Below are positions 4,419 through 12,779 of a DNA stretch of 42,318 bases, piece by piece. Below the pieces are notes generated by a model. The model did not search any database, was not told the DNA's origin, and worked only from the letters and a program-made list of their open reading frames with translations. Both the position numbers and the translations under genes were made by a program. How positions within the stretch are numbered: position 1 is the stretch's first letter; every line of letters begins with the position of its first letter. The stretch covers positions 1 to 42,318 of IMG/VR virus record IMGVR_UViG_3300032275_000008, one strand, 5' to 3'. Source of the stretch: a virus.

Positions 4419-5024
4419 TTAGCTCCATTGATTTGCCATTGCCTCAGCGATTCCGCTAAAAGTTTTTGATCTTTCTTTTGCCCTGATTTCTTTTGGAAGC
4501 CTGAAAGTATCATAAGACCATTTGGGATATTTCTCACCCTTCTTAGTGATTATGTATTCAGGTTCGACAATTTTAGTAGGTACAAGCTTTGGCAAATTCT
4601 TTAACCAAAGACAGGTTGTTTTCATTGCACCATGTCCAAAATGATAAGGTTGAATGATTTGATCTGGTTTACGAATCTTTGATGAAATTACACTCACTGG
4701 ATTCTCAATACAAATTTTGTCAATTGGCGCATCCATTAATTTTTGCACAAAATCTAAAGCCGCTTGTTGCCTTCCATCTGCAATCTTTTCTTTAAACCAA
4801 GCTGCGCCACTTACTGCTAAATGCGTGCAAGGTGGGTGAGCAATCATCAAGTCAAAAGGTTCGTCAAATCTTGTTTTAAGAACCTCAAAAATGTCACCTT
4901 GAAAATGATATTGTGAAAATTCTCCCTCAGAAGGCAAAATATCACAACTCCAAGCATCATGCCCTTTTCTGCGAAAGGCGTCTCGCACAGTTCCCGAAAA
5001 TTCACAAGCCACTAAAACTTTCAT
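4419..5024 (-). CDS. Short C5-cytosine methyltransferase-like phage protein
   Basis: A 201-aa protein with the signatures of C5-cytosine methyltransferases in compact form: VACEFSG at residues 5-11 (SAM-binding loop), IAHPPCTHLAVSG around 61-73 (the PPC catalytic motif, Cys66) and CIENPVSV around 105-112 (ENV-like motif). Ordinary enzymes of this class exceed 300 residues and have a target recognition domain; this one has almost no room for it. Phages carry many such short forms. It may modify phage DNA against host restriction, or use another substrate. GGAGGGGAAG precedes the ATG, which overlaps the upstream TGA. Confidence 0.75.
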   Translation of the reverse strand: MKVLVACEFSGTVRDAFRRKGHDAWSCDILPSEGEFSQYHFQGDIFEVLKTRFDEPFDLMIAHPPCTHLAVSGAAWFKEKIADGRQQAALDFVQKLMDAPIDKICIENPVSVISSKIRKPDQIIQPYHFGHGAMKTTCLWLKNLPKLVPTKIVEPEYIITKKGEKYPKWSYDTFRLPKEIRAKERSKTFSGIAEAMANQWS

Positions 5025-5200
5025 CTCTTCCCCTCCTTAATAATTAACTCCATTTTCTCAAAATTCCCAGCCAAAATCAAAGCCTCATATTGCTCAAGGC
5101 TATCAAAATAACGTAGGAAGATGTCTCGGTTTGTTCGGTAGAATTTAGCTTTGCTTGCTCTTTCTACTGTGCGCTCTAGTAGGTCTTTAATGTGAATCAC
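5021..5200 (-). CDS. Hypothetical small protein, GTG start (59 aa)
   Basis: Found by reading the gap. GTG at 5200 follows GGAGG with five bases between, and the GTGA overlaps the upstream stop; its own TGA overlaps the ATG of the methyltransferase-like gene. The product (IHIKDLLERTVERASKAKFY to MELIIKEGKR) is highly charged and helical. Function unknown, but coupling on both sides makes it a convincing gene. Confidence 0.65.
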   Translation of the reverse strand: MIHIKDLLERTVERASKAKFYRTNRDIFLRYFDSLEQYEALILAGNFEKMELIIKEGKR

Positions 5201-5864: not shown

Positions 5865-7187
5865 TTAATAATTATTTTCTTCTGTGAATCTCTGAAACTC
5901 TTTATCGAATTTCATTTCACTTTCCCCAGTTTCTCCATTTCGATTCTTTCCAATCAGAATGTAAGCCTTTCCCTTGCTTCTCTGATAAGCTTCAAGCCAG
6001 CGGTTGTAGTTGGGACTGTGCGGCGGTTCTGCCTCTTTTTCCAAATAGTAATCGTCACGGTGAACAAACATCACAACGTCACTCTCTTGCTCGATGCTTC
6101 CAGAATCTCTCAAGTCTGAAAGAAGAGGTCTTTTGTTTTGTCTTTTCTCGTTTTCTCTCGAAAGCTGACAAAGCACGATCACAACAATCTGATATTTTTT
6201 AGCTAAAGTTTTTAAATCCTCAGCTATCCCACCAATTTGTCTTTCTCGTGAATCTTTTAAGTTTGTCGGCTTCATCTTTTGGAGGTAGTCAATTATCACA
6301 ACCTTAACTCCATGCTTAGAAACCAGTCTTTTTATTTTTGACTCCAAGTTTGCAACCGTTATGCTTGCAGGGTCATCAATAAATAATCTGCTATTGTAGT
6401 CATTCTTAGCAATCATTGCCGCTTGCTCTTCAATTGGTTTGAGGCATCCATTTTTCAATCTGTAGCCGTTAATTGAAGCCATCTCAACCAGAAATCTTGC
6501 TAAAACCTCATCTTCTGTCATCTCAATTGAAAATAAAACAGTTGGAATTGTTTGTGAGATATTCTTAGCCAAGTTTAATGCGAAGGCAGTTTTCCCCATT
6601 GAGGTTTTACCAGCCAAAGTAATCATATTTCCACAATACAGCCCACTCAAGATTTTATCGAGTAATGGATAGCCAAGATTTATGATCTCGCCCGTTTCTT
6701 TTTGTTCAACTTTTCTGACAATAAAATTCTGCATTAACTCATTAGCGGATCTAGGCTGCTTCTCATTCTCAAATTCTAAGCCGTCAAATGTCTCGTTTAA
6801 ATCACTTTTGATCTCCTCAAGGGTCTTTGACTTATCAAGTGATTCAATAGCCTTAAATAGCTCTCTTTTCTGCCAGAGAGTTAGTAAATTCTTGCCATAA
6901 TCTTTTGCATCAAGGATTGTCTCACCAGCAGCTAATAATAATTCTTGCATGTATTCATGACCGCCAACAATTTTCATTGTAGGTTCAGACTGCAAATAAG
7001 ATCTTAAAGTCATCATGTCTTGAGATTCACCTTTAGCAATTGAGGTTTTCAAGTATCTGAAAAGATTCTGGTGACATTCAAAATAAAAATGTTCTGGATT
7101 TAGGAAGCTTACAGAGTCAATTCTGAAGTTATGCAGAATGATTAAACCGATTAGGCCTTGCTCAACTCGTTGATTGAATAGTTCCAT
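5865..7187 (-). CDS. dnaB: DnaB-type replicative helicase
   Basis: A 440-aa hexameric helicase of the DnaB family. The first 100 residues form the DnaB N-terminal domain (EQGLIGLIILHN, FYFECHQNLF). The ATPase domain has Walker A GKTSMGKT (193-200), Walker B VVIIDYLQ (296-303), QLSRENEKR (341-349) and the diagnostic DLRDSGSIEQESD (358-370). It unwinds phage DNA at the fork and recruits the host polymerase, as the window encodes none. It shares bases with the upstream loader-like gene, so the two are co-translated. Confidence 0.95.
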   Translation of the reverse strand: MELFNQRVEQGLIGLIILHNFRIDSVSFLNPEHFYFECHQNLFRYLKTSIAKGESQDMMTLRSYLQSEPTMKIVGGHEYMQELLLAAGETILDAKDYGKNLLTLWQKRELFKAIESLDKSKTLEEIKSDLNETFDGLEFENEKQPRSANELMQNFIVRKVEQKETGEIINLGYPLLDKILSGLYCGNMITLAGKTSMGKTAFALNLAKNISQTIPTVLFSIEMTEDEVLARFLVEMASINGYRLKNGCLKPIEEQAAMIAKNDYNSRLFIDDPASITVANLESKIKRLVSKHGVKVVIIDYLQKMKPTNLKDSRERQIGGIAEDLKTLAKKYQIVVIVLCQLSRENEKRQNKRPLLSDLRDSGSIEQESDVVMFVHRDDYYLEKEAEPPHSPNYNRWLEAYQRSKGKAYILIGKNRNGETGESEMKFDKEFQRFTEENNY

Positions 7188-7915
7188 TATTTACCACCTG
7201 TTAAATAATCCAAATAGGAAGGGTTTGCATATTGATTAGGTTTCTGAACTTGCTCTTGGCTAGATGAATACTCTCCTTTCCATCCCTGCTTATTTAACCA
7301 CACAGAAACTTGCTTGGTGTAGATATTTTTAGCATGGCAATCATCCATGTAGTTTTTTAGTCCCTTCTCGATTTCTTCAAAGCTGGAAATCTTTAAAGCT
7401 TTTTTGAATGACTCCTTCGCCTGATCCTTTACACCCTTTCCAGTGTGAATTGCTTTGTAAGATTGCCAGAAAGATTCAAATTGAGATTCAATCAATAATT
7501 TCTTTTCCTCTTCCAATCTTTTTCTTTCTTGTGTTTCTTTATCTGTGTCTGTTTCTTTCTCTGTTTCTGTTTCATTTTCTTTCTCTTTCTCGCCTTTTCT
7601 GGGTTCGTAAAAACCCACTGGGTTTTCTGGGTTAGCTTGGGTTTCCTCCTTCTTAGGTCTTCCACCCTTAGAGCCATTTGATTTATTGCGCTCTAATACT
7701 ACTTGATATTTTTGCTCATCAAGGTCAAACTGATTCTTGAAAAAGGCAAAAGCCATCCCAACTTGGGGAGGTAAATTTATAATCTCTAAGCCATTCTGAT
7801 AATCAAAAAGCGCACGAAAAAGCAATCCTAGTTCATCATCTTTTAGATGTTTAACTGGTGCATAAAATGATTTATAAAGTAGAAAAGAAGGACGACTATT
7901 TATTGAAGTGGTCAT
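7187..7915 (-). CDS. Replication initiator/helicase loader-like protein (DUF6291-like N-terminus)
   Basis: A 242-aa protein. Residues 1-75 (FLLYKSFYAPVKHLKDDELG, then LFRALFDYQNGLE) match the DUF6291-type domain of phage replication proteins. The centre (about 88-140) is a Lys/Glu/Thr repeat, probably a flexible linker. The C-terminal part (FESFWQSYKAIHTGKGVKDQ, then KQVSVWLNKQGWKGEY) resembles the helicase-binding end of phage O/P- or DnaT-like proteins. Its stop overlaps the helicase start, supporting a job as origin-binding or loading partner of the helicase. No ATPase motif is visible, so it is not a DnaC-type loader. Confidence 0.75.
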   Translation of the reverse strand: MTTSINSRPSFLLYKSFYAPVKHLKDDELGLLFRALFDYQNGLEIINLPPQVGMAFAFFKNQFDLDEQKYQVVLERNKSNGSKGGRPKKEETQANPENPVGFYEPRKGEKEKENETETEKETDTDKETQERKRLEEEKKLLIESQFESFWQSYKAIHTGKGVKDQAKESFKKALKISSFEEIEKGLKNYMDDCHAKNIYTKQVSVWLNKQGWKGEYSSSQEQVQKPNQYANPSYLDYLTGGK

Positions 7916-8099
7916 TGTGATTTGAATTACTTGTTAATACTTGGTTCTTGATGTCATTCGAATAAAATGAGAATTGTCTCTTAACCGCATCAAGTATGAT
8001 TTGGGGAGCATTTATTCCATTTAGTGAATCTAGAAGCTTGGCAATGTGCCTGCGATGTAGCTTATTTACCAATTCTATTTGGTCAACTGTATTTTCCAT
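7896..8099 (-). CDS. Hypothetical small protein (67 aa)
   Basis: Starts MENTVDQIELVNKLHRRHIA at 8099, with GAGGAA immediately before; an ATG three codons upstream is possible. Predicted helical, with an Asn/Ser/His-rich end. It overlaps the start of the loader-like gene by 20 bases and is the first gene after the long non-coding region. Function unknown. Confidence 0.55.
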   Translation of the reverse strand: MENTVDQIELVNKLHRRHIAKLLDSLNGINAPQIILDAVKRQFSFYSNDIKNQVLTSNSNHNDHFNK

Positions 8100-8677
8100 G
8101 TTCCTCATTTTTACTTGTTAATTTTCATTTCCACCACTCTCAACCCCTATTTCTAAGGATCAAGAGAAAATTGGTCGGAGCGACTAAATTAGAAACTACC
8201 CCGTTTTCAGCGTCTAATCGCCTATTTAGTTCACAACTTTCCACGCAAGTTGCCAGCGCGCCTAATTGTGCTGCAAATTATTCAGGCTCTCCCATGTCAT
8301 GTTGCAGCGGAACATTTGCCTTCATCTTTCCCCGTGCCAAGGTTCGCCCCGCCAGATTGATTACTGACCTCTCCACCTATGCGATGGCGTCCTAGTTATA
8401 GACGAGGGGCGGTATGTCCCCCGCTGGTGCGATCCTTTCGGGTTCGTTCGGGGGCACTATTTGCAGAGGACGCCTTTTGGACGAACTCAGGACTTCTTTC
8501 TACACTAGGTAGATGGGTGAATTGGCAAGATTTTATTAGCTTTCGCCTCACGGCAGGAGACTTGCCAGCCCCTTAGTCCGATTTGTTTCATCCCCCGCTA
8601 CGCAGTGAATAAAACCTAACGCATTTCTGCGCTTCTCTATACACGTTTTTAGACATGTATAGAAATACGAAGAAAAA

Positions 8678-8785
8678 CATCCCGCTCGGGTTGTTTCACT
8701 AATTTCAACCCTTAAAATCAGCCAGAAAATAACAAATCATCCCGCTCGGGTTGGTAATTTTAGTCATTAAAATTTACCGCTCGGG
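8678..8785. repeat. Three CCCGCTCGGG-type dyad repeats
   Basis: CATCCCGCTCGGGTTG occurs at 8678-8693 and again at 8738-8753, and a shortened third copy CCGCTCGGG at 8777-8785. Each core is self-complementary around two bases and could form a small hairpin. The second and third copies are joined by a long stem (8753-8762 with 8767-8778, one bulge). They may be loops or protein sites of the RNA. Confidence 0.75.
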
Positions 8786-8794
8786 ATCTTAATT

Positions 8795-8803
8795 TGATAT
8801 AAT
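8795..8803 (+). promoter_or_regulatory. Possible rightward extended -10 promoter
   Basis: TGATATAAT is a perfect extended -10 (TGnTATAAT) on the plus strand, opposite to the probable sense of the surrounding RNA. The -35 region (about 8775-8780) does not match. Transcription would start near 8810 and run antisense to the small gene at 8926-9060. It could be chance in AT-rich DNA. Confidence 0.35.
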
Positions 8804-8925
8804 AAAGCAAGTGGGCGTTGCTCGAGACTACCCACCCGCCGACTAACCCGTTGCAACAGGCTTCGTCCCAGCTCCATCATCCACAAGGGAGAGAGGAATC
8901 GCTGGTTTTATTCTTTAACTGAAAA

Positions 8926-9060
8926 TTATTCAGCTTTATCTTCGGCGATTTGTTCGTTTAGATCTGCTGCTTGTTCAGCATCAAGAACGATGGTTTCTTC
9001 TTTACCATCAATTTCAACGCCAATTTCATCACCAGCTTTTAATTTTTCGATTTCTGACAT
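8926..9060 (-). CDS. Small acidic protein inside the RNA locus (44 aa)
   Basis: An ATG frame of 44 codons, MSEIEKLKAGDEIGVEIDG to NEQIAEDKAE, very acidic and with normal codon use for this phage. It would fold as a short beta segment plus helix. There is no clear ribosome-binding site (an A/T-only leader) and the stop is inside a small hairpin (CTGAA/TTCAG). It separates the two structured RNA segments. It could be a real regulator or an open frame carried within one long RNA. Confidence 0.5.
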   Translation of the reverse strand: MSEIEKLKAGDEIGVEIDGKEETIVLDAEQAADLNEQIAEDKAE

Positions 9061-9082
9061 GATTTTATTTTTTTAAATTATT

Positions 9083-9581
9083 CCCCAAGCCATCAATGCG
9101 CTAGTTTTTAATTAGCTCTGTACTTGGGGCCGTTCGGTTGCTTTACCGAAAGTCAATCCAATGGTGCCTTTAGGCGGAACTTTCTTGGATATTCCCCGCC
9201 ACCAATTTTTACTTAATCCTATTGGCAGGATAAGGTCTTTCCCTTGTCAGCTTTCCCTCTGGATTGCATCACTCCTTTCAGAGTTTGACCAGCTCGATTA
9301 CTAATTCGCTATTACCATTTTGCAGATAAGGAAACTATACAGCTTATCGTCTGATATTCTTAAGCCTTTCAGCTCTACAAGTTCCAGTGAATATCTCCAA
9401 AATAATAAAGTGAGGGAGTCGCTGGAACCAGTAGAATTGAATTTCAACTTAGCTGATTATCCCTCTTTTTTTAATTCAAGCTTAAAAAATTCGATGCACC
9501 GAAGGATAATCAACAAAATGGAAATGTCAGCGCAGCAGGGATTCGAACCGCTGGCCCCTGAAGGGTGAGGACTACGCTGAC
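9083..9581 (-). ncRNA. Candidate large structured RNA, segment B, with two pseudoknots
   Basis: Nearly every stretch has a partner: 9083-9089/9123-9129; 9133-9138/9145-9150; 9156-9161/9185-9190 with GCC/GGC inside; 9212-9220/9227-9234 with a bulged A; 9257-9261/9279-9283 with GGA/TCC inside; 9325-9330/9343-9348. GATATTC 9353-9359/GAATATC 9389-9395 crosses GTTCCAG 9381-9387/CTGGAAC 9422-9428. TTGAATT 9437-9443/AATTCAA 9473-9479 crosses TGATTATCC 9454-9462/GGATAATCA 9504-9512. Unpaired parts are A/G rich on the minus strand, as in folded RNAs. A tRNA-like element stands at its minus-strand 5' end. Together with segment A it may be one RNA of about 1.4 kb. Confidence 0.6.
9526..9581 (-). ncRNA. 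tRNA-like element without D-arm
   Basis: On the minus strand GTCAGCG and CGCTGAC (9581-9575 and 9532-9526) form a perfect 7-bp acceptor-like stem. Inside are T and A at the positions expected for U8 and A9, a CCC-TTCA-GGG hairpin, and a T-arm with the canonical loop TTCGAAT (9547-9541) on a CAG(C)GG/CCCTG stem with one bulged C. There is no D-arm and the element is only 56 bases, so it is not a normal tRNA and has no encoded CCA. It could be a tRNA mimic of the large RNA or a decayed tRNA. Confidence 0.55.
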
Positions 9582-9613
9582 GCGCGGGAATGAAAGAACC
9601 GCTCCTCAATTAT

Positions 9614-10603: not shown

Positions 10604-10747
10604 TTAATAACATTGAACAAAAGCTTTCGCTAACCAAGCAAAAGTCCATAAAAACCCTAGCGTGGCAATTACTGCGATCACCAGCAAAAGTTTATTTTGA
10701 TAAATTGTTTCTTCGCACTTGTCGCACCATTTAATAAACTTTCTCAT
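10604..10747 (-). CDS. Small membrane protein (47 aa)
   Basis: Found by reading the gap. MRKFIKWCDKCEETIYQNK is followed by a hydrophobic helix (LLLVIAVIATLGFLWTFAWL). CDKC forms a cysteine pair before the membrane segment. GGGGG stands five bases before the ATG within a 22-bp sequence that is repeated in front of the next upstream gene. It stops directly before the ATGAGG at 10603. Confidence 0.6.
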   Translation of the reverse strand: MRKFIKWCDKCEETIYQNKLLLVIAVIATLGFLWTFAWLAKAFVQCY

Positions 10748-10764
10748 TAAACCCCCATTTTTAA
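10743..10764. repeat. 22-bp leader repeat, copy 1
   Basis: The sequence covering the start codon and ribosome-binding site of the 47-aa membrane protein (10743-10764) is identical to 10849-10870, which covers those of the 30-aa membrane protein. The core on the minus strand is AAAATGGGGGTTTAATGAG. It is a duplicated translation-initiation region. Confidence 0.85.
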
Positions 10765-10853
10765 CTTAATAAACAAATTAGACAAAAACCAAACGCAGCG
10801 CCCGCAATTGTGCTAAATAAAATAACTAAACAGCTTTCTAAAAAATCACTCAT
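10761..10853 (-). CDS. Membrane microprotein (30 aa)
   Basis: Found by reading the gap. MSDFLESC is followed by one hydrophobic helix (LVILFSTIAGAAFGFCLICL), nearly the whole protein. It has the same 22-bp initiation region as the 47-aa membrane protein downstream and its ATG overlaps the upstream stop as TAATG. The pair may have arisen by local duplication. Confidence 0.55.
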   Translation of the reverse strand: MSDFLESCLVILFSTIAGAAFGFCLICLLS

Positions 10854-12423: not shown

Positions 12424-12779
12424 AAAGAATCCTCCAATAATTCAGGGTTTTCGTAGATGTTGCCGATTACCTCATAACCTTCACAAACATCATAAAGAGA
12501 ATGACTGTCACAAATTTCATCACCGCGATGATAATAACGGAATCCACCGCGATCAAATGCAACAATAAGATTTGAATAGCCTTCTGCCGCCAAAACATCG
12601 CCTTCGTAAATTTCATTTCTATTTTTATCTTTTAAGCCAGTGTATTGCATTAATTCTAATTCCCCAATCGGATCGTTTCCCTCGATGGTGTATAGTCTGC
12701 CATTTGCCCCGCCGTGAGCATAACTCTTAATCATGTTTTTGTTTTGCTTATCCCAAGCTCTAAATTTTATTTTTCTCAT
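12420..12779 (-). CDS. YopX-family phage protein
   Basis: A 119-aa protein of the YopX family, recognised by the opening KIKFRAWDKQNKNMI, the central LMQYTGLKDKNRNEIYEGDV and the final YEVIGNIYENPELL. These proteins are common in phages of many hosts and fold as a small beta-barrel; their function is not known. It lies in the string of small early genes right behind the early promoter, so it is probably made soon after infection. Confidence 0.9.
   Translation of the reverse strand: MRKIKFRAWDKQNKNMIKSYAHGGANGRLYTIEGNDPIGELELMQYTGLKDKNRNEIYEGDVLAAEGYSNLIVAFDRGGFRYYHRGDEICDSHSLYDVCEGYEVIGNIYENPELLEDSL

Follow-up and report, generated by a model that had tools for sequence, protein, structure and literature searches.

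The window analysed here, a stretch of 42,318 bases that makes up the whole of one IMG/VR virus record, carries at 8135-9605 (minus strand) a structured non-coding region of ~1.47 kb with a modular architecture. Most of this array consists of self-closed helical domains placed between a constant hairpin, M1, and a constant GNRA hairpin, M9; it is conserved among phages, several of its modules fold as RNA, and the folding prefers the minus strand. In the group of carriers, which are related, uncultured bacterial viruses, the domains are interspersed with predicted small genes and tRNA-like structures. A large, ornate non-coding RNA on the minus strand had been proposed in a first-pass annotation of the sequence, and this proposal was supported by cross-phage conservation, covariation and folding energies. 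Sequence comparison further indicated that the helices are grouped into modules that have been retained, lost or exchanged in other phages, an arrangement that could not be seen in the single sequence.

Location of the array and its carriers

The first-pass annotation placed the RNA at 8160-9581; the region was found to be real, with better boundaries at ~9605 and 8135. Its higher GC content was evident in 700-base bins, at 45.9% (8051-8750) and 43.7% (8401-9100) versus mostly 33-41% in neighbouring bins. A single 44-codon frame had been reported, which is correct for minus-strand ATG frames of at least 40 aa (9060-8926); the other, longer listed frames begin with GTG or TTG or belong to the plus strand, and are interrupted by module insertions in relatives. 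No protein-coding frame is kept across the region. Single-sequence folding of the minus strand in 200-nt windows gave z values of -2.0 to -4.3 at 8401-8800 and mostly ~0 in the flanking genes. The array adjoins replication genes, lying upstream of and co-directional with them: the minus-strand gene at 7187-7915 encodes a DUF6291 domain and is similar to replication-initiation proteins, and that at 5865-7187 encodes a DnaB-like helicase. A 70-aa ORF located 3' of the structured RNA (8108-7896) is bracketed by direct repeats ATTAACAAGTAA near 8126-8115 and 7936-7925 and is possibly a small gene acquired by insertion; elsewhere in the phage group its position is occupied by other genes or by the pairing switch described below.

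The first three relatives were obtained through the adjacent replication protein, and more through short exact patterns taken from shared non-coding blocks. Two or more modules were present in 22 distinct contigs including the window, i.e. in at least 21 other IMG/VR contigs, a count that includes near-identical copies from other samples (L093/L096). In at least two further contigs, L120 and L121, M9, the last module, stood alone in the sequence available. Non-coding blocks of the window recurred in relatives at 77-100% DNA identity (blastn). Terminases, where found, were 84-95% identical to that of the window, which indicates a single phage group; terminase matches reached 44% in phages of Gammaproteobacteria. 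Helicases were 29-42% identical in array-bearing contigs where found, and 61% identical in L120. Set against helicases at 29-61% and terminases at 84-95%, module identities of 77-100% indicate either selection on the RNA itself or its exchange as an intact unit. No isolate phage matched the window's region, and the matches listed between isolate phages and the L008 array (20 of 89 records) covered only the stretch with an HNH-like gene. Contigs L006, L107, L110 and L111 were rejected as chance pattern matches. A genome scan with the M4 core returned 83 stretches, none confirmed as a relative by blastn, an outcome consistent with chance because the pattern has 17 fixed bases.

Modules, tRNA-like structures and cargo genes

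All features of the window described in this section are on the minus strand. At the 5' end of the RNA, a GCGG..CCGC hairpin (9582-9605), which folds alike in the window and L116, directly precedes a tRNA-like structure (9526-9581) composed of a 10-bp acceptor-like stem GUCAGCGUAG/CUGCGCUGAC, a small D-like hairpin and a T-arm with the canonical UUCGAAU loop; an anticodon arm is absent. This structure is 99% identical in L122 and shared by L116, where the acceptor stem is changed in a paired way (GCCAGCGCAG/CUGCGCUGGC); its folding z was -2.6 in L116 and -1.1 in the window. The fold resembles those of mascRNA and menRNA, which have a T-arm and no full anticodon arm and are processed by tRNA enzymes, and differs in its 10-bp acceptor-like stem, in its phage origin and in lacking a significant Rfam score (mascRNA-like, 19.4 bits, E 0.94, cut-off 42.5). 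The tRNA-like sequence is thus real, although a tRNA gene search found no intact tRNA in the window. A promoter-like TTGACA-17-AATAAT sequence at 9637-9609 (scan score 11/12) overlaps the 3' end of the upstream gene and was not counted as evidence, because conservation there may equally reflect coding, as the same bases specify the last residues of the upstream protein (LTAPxF codons).

In relatives, tRNA or tRNA-like sequences occur at other places in the array. An intact tRNA-Cys is present at L007:12333-12407. By eye and from single folds, the L007 array was also seen to contain a tRNA-like sequence of the long-variable-arm type and a CAU-type sequence at 12646-12723, exactly between M4 and M5; a CAU-type sequence was likewise seen in L094, and tRNA-like sequences with expanded arms in L008 and L101. 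Several of these (L007, L094) have CCA-type ends and CAU anticodon positions.

At the 5' end the nearest relative is L122, with 99% identity over window 9610-9367; it lacks window 9366-8911, the 44-codon ORF included, and M2 sits there instead. In the alignment with L122, 9080-9366 is a window-only stretch. The 44-codon ORF (8926-9060), a candidate cargo gene, is 86% identical in L098 at the DNA level with its amino acids mostly kept; codon changes between the two (9 synonymous, 8 non-synonymous) indicate that it is probably translated. It is followed by a 5' domain (8807-8906) made up of a closing helix CCAGC/GCUGG, a UGCA-loop hairpin and a GGUGGG/CCCACU hairpin. Homologous hairpins with changed yet paired stems occur in L099, L002, L008, L100, L101 and L102; a strand-swap test of helix B was weakly positive (242 of 20000 trials) and was contaminated by unrelated TTGCAA matches. 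A repeat stretch (8680-8789) then holds three copies of CCCGAGCGG(G) separated by A/T-rich hairpins; two copies align in L122, so copy number varies.

The constant 5' anchor, M1 (8618-8676; 15 distinct homologous rows), consists of a UUUCU/AGAAA stem that encloses a long hairpin, UUUCUAUACAU..AUGUGUAUAGAAA. It is followed by M2 (8585-8616), with an invariant ACUGCGUAGCGGGG hairpin end and a closing stem for which different phages have different sequences, and by M3 (8522-8600), which is closed by GGCAAG/CUUGCC, bears a GAAA tetraloop and is found at 93-99% identity in L008, L092, L105 and L106 and partially in L096 and L100. M4 (8460-8520) has a GAGUUCGUCCAAAAGGCGUCCUC core and is 79-100% identical in L003, L007, L008 and L106. 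M5 (8412-8461), closed by CCCCC/GGGGG and also with a GAAA tetraloop, has 11 homologues at 91-100%, and just upstream of it relatives carry tRNA-like sequences or ORFs (HNH, Acb2-like). M7 (8324-8421), closed by CGCCCC/GGGGCG, is 95-100% identical in L103, L105 and L122, and M8 (8169-8224) is 80-98% identical in L092, L101 and L103. The constant 3' anchor, M9 (8135-8173; 18 distinct homologous rows), is a 12-bp hairpin with conserved G-U pairs and a GAAA or GGAA loop, and ends ~27 bases ahead of the next gene. The GNRA-type tetraloops that had been noticed on the minus strand are real, and they are conserved: 8173-8135 has GAAA, 8461-8412 has GAAA at CCGAAAGG, and 8600-8522 has GCGAAAGC.

Module ends are sharp, and each module is present or absent as a unit. 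Modules generally follow the order 5' hairpins, M1, M12 or M2/M3, M6, M4, M5, M7, M10, M8, M9 and M11, the exceptions seen being L003, where M10 precedes M4, and M2, which can lie on either side of M1. Present in the window are M1, M2, M3, M4, M5, M7, M8 and M9, and the minimal relatives L102 and L104 have little beyond the 5' hairpins, M1 and M9. In alignment folds of M2, M5, M7, M11 and M12, the two ends of each module pair with one another and close it, an arrangement that would make insertion or loss of a module harmless. At two loci, L100:7299-7470 (minus-strand orientation) and L096:1564-1722, M11 is flanked by two copies of the M9 hairpin, and its borders bear short direct repeats, as if it had been inserted into a duplicated site.

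Several arrays carry further predicted genes. ORFs with the Pfam Acb2/Tad1 hairpin domain were scored above the cut-off in L105 (45.9 bits; ~10614-10835, minus strand) and L092 (38.5 bits; ~4898-5131, plus strand) and below it in L106 (~7823-8069, minus strand), and their position within the RNA array differs among the three. L098 has a DnaJ-type zinc-finger-like ORF that scored below the cut-off, and L008:6148-6708 contains two ORFs at the M4/M5 junction, one of them in a stretch resembling phage HNH endonuclease genes. Proteins of the Acb2 family act as sponges for the cyclic nucleotides that serve as defence signals, and Acb2/Tad1 proteins are of the anti-CBASS/anti-Thoeris type; the cargo, which includes several Acb2-like genes, raises the possibility that the array is part of the phage's counter-defence.

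Just after M9, a pairing switch was observed in some of the phages, in which a word of 6-7 nt is followed by a hairpin with the word's reverse complement as its loop, and then by a second copy of the word 1-5 bases ahead of an ATG. It was located at L008:7080-7170, L008:7430-7525, L003:5060-5155 and L101 ~2725-2635 (minus strand), and also in L102, L104, L105, L109, L116, L117 and L123. The words vary by phage (GGGGAC, GGTTCAC, GTTAGGG, GTGCAG, GTGCGG, GGTTCGG, GTAGGG, GGTTCAG, GGGGAAG). The loop was complementary to the second copy in all 11 parsed elements and fully to the first copy in 9 of the 11. From its sequence the switch looks like a toggling pseudoknot that controls translation, and is possibly a separate new element.

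Covariation and strand of the RNA

Covariation was decisive for the M2 block (8616-8585). In a MAFFT alignment, 90.2% of cells paired versus 47-68% with slid partners, and 16 cells had changed on both sides. The covariation score was 0.324, compared to 0.088 ± 0.025 for shuffled and at most 0.120 for slid alignments, and was reached in none of 500 shuffles. When 3' strands were exchanged between phages, 47.9 ± 5.9 pairs were retained versus 77 of 88 in the native combinations, a value reached in none of 20000 trials. The loop ACUGCGUAGCGG does not vary, but it is closed by different stems, such as UUUUAUUC/GGAUGAAA (window), GUCCG/CGGAC (L099), AAAUC/GAUUU (L003) and GAUUUAUC/GGCAAAUC (L098). 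Compensatory base changes beyond controls, the mark of a structured non-coding RNA, are thus present in M2. Supporting paired changes were also found in M5, M6, M8 (5 pairs changed on both sides among 4 sequences), M10 and M11. Sequences are few and several modules are too identical for covariation to be informative.

Alignment folding energies were compared with column shuffles in the sense (minus) and antisense directions. The respective z values were -8.4 and -7.8 for M1, -5.7 and -1.8 for M2, -6.2 and -3.9 for M6, -3.9 and -1.8 for M8, -6.6 and 0.0 for M9, and -5.1 and -1.8 for M11; M3, M4, M7 and M12 were weakly supported. M5 (-3.7 and -4.1) and M10 (-1.6 and -3.6) had no minus-strand preference and count against the reading favoured below. 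The values for M9 fix the strand as minus, and the balance of the data favours a minus-strand RNA.

Known RNA families and alternative explanations

The first-pass annotation had suggested a divergent member of the GOLLD or ROOL families or a new class. Rfam searches of the window and three related arrays, at gathering level and permissively, returned only tRNA and chance matches such as microRNA models. The GOLLD model (RF02032, cut-off 150 bits) gave a best, chance-level score of 9.5 bits in the window, at 7692-7791 on the plus strand and outside the region, and no match in 13 relatives. The ROOL model (RF03087, cut-off 99.1 bits) gave no match at E <= 10 in the same 14 records; 14 controls were also silent, so that the sensitivity of this result rests also on the Rfam search of the window. 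Group I intron core (RF00028) was found in none of 14 records at E <= 1, with controls matched in 8, and group II intron D1-D4 (RF01998) scored at most 12 bits against a cut-off of 35. These searches support a new class and not a divergent member. A search of the open PMC literature yielded no account of the array RNA.

GOLLD and ROOL are large phage RNAs of unknown function that often lie near tRNA islands and form RNA cages (PMC12286853). Like the array RNA, GOLLD is large, structured and carried by phages or prophages, near tRNA islands, with tRNAs sometimes within its variable linker (PMC12286853). GOLLD has a universally conserved 3' region, whereas in the array the modules 3' of M5 vary and only the short M9 hairpin is general; the array RNA, moreover, has optional modules, is sited before replication genes and has small ORFs inside. 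ROOL is similarly large, ornate, phage-borne and often near tRNA islands, but has a fixed architecture of ~570 positions that the array RNA lacks. The absence of a constant core sets the array RNA apart from both. An abundant ~800-nt non-coding transcript of the Vibrio phage ICP1, compared by description, is likewise a large phage RNA not adjoining tRNAs; its neighbours are lysis genes (PMC7567579).

The reading favoured here, with moderate confidence, is that the array encodes a large, structured, domain-modular minus-strand RNA that is transcribed from the early strand, perhaps released at tRNA-like sites, and acts in trans. Transcription of the array would accompany or precede that of the replication operon, and the RNA would fold one domain at a time. 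Host tRNA-processing enzymes may free it at the tRNA-like structures, and the freed product may act as a stable RNA early in infection, as proposed for GOLLD and ROOL; by this analogy it perhaps works as they do, without being a member of either family. Recombination between co-circulating phages would add and remove domains, a self-closed domain tolerating exchange with the rest of the fold intact. Three further points count against this reading. The minimal forms in L102 and L104 imply that there is no large obligatory core, the small internal ORFs suggest that part of the transcript is translated, and M9, lying just before a start codon, would also fit a cis-acting leader.

Such a leader, in which the array is a long 5' UTR of the replication operon controlling transcription (by antitermination or protection) or translation of the first gene, is the most serious rival, because M9 also precedes replication genes without an array: in L120 and L121 it stands directly before start codons, often followed by the pairing switch. 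It would also explain why the array is always upstream of and co-directional with the replication genes, and would be at ease with the minimal forms. We nevertheless regard it as less likely, since a leader would seldom reach this size or show such module turnover, the array contains unrelated cargo genes as well as tRNA-like structures, and the start codon is tracked by the pairing switch rather than by the array. A decayed or specialised tRNA cluster, i.e. a degenerated tRNA array interleaved with small stable RNAs as in T4, is less probable still. In clusters of the T4 type, stable RNAs other than tRNAs are interspersed with tRNAs and homing endonucleases, a mixture echoed by the tRNA-Cys of L007, the tRNA-like sequences of L007 and L094 and the HNH-like gene of L008; the array RNA, however, is far larger, modular and mostly non-tRNA, its best conserved modules mostly have neither tRNA features nor an Rfam tRNA score, and the window has no tRNA. 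Selection on DNA hairpins, as in a hairpin-rich replication origin or recombination hot spot, would suit the adjoining initiator-like and helicase genes and the mosaic gain and loss of blocks, but is rendered very improbable by the strand bias of the fold, as the G-U pairs and GNRA loops of M9 (antisense z 0.0) together with M2 and M11 favour an RNA from one strand. Chance folding of functionless DNA, for which helices of 5-9 bp are common enough and several single-sequence windows had z near 0, is contradicted by covariation and cross-phage conservation, is refuted for M2 and is hardly credible for the rest.

Beyond the trans-acting RNA favoured above, it is tentatively proposed that the array represents a giant phage RNA class without an obligatory core, which would shuffle self-closed domains in a set order, in the way known from phage proteins, and would carry anti-defence genes and tRNA-like processing sites between these domains. 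To our knowledge, domain shuffling has rarely been documented in non-coding RNA. The functions of large phage RNAs of the GOLLD and ROOL type are still unknown, and a further class unrelated to them in sequence, with domains that can be dropped or swapped, would provide a natural deletion series for the study of how such RNAs function.
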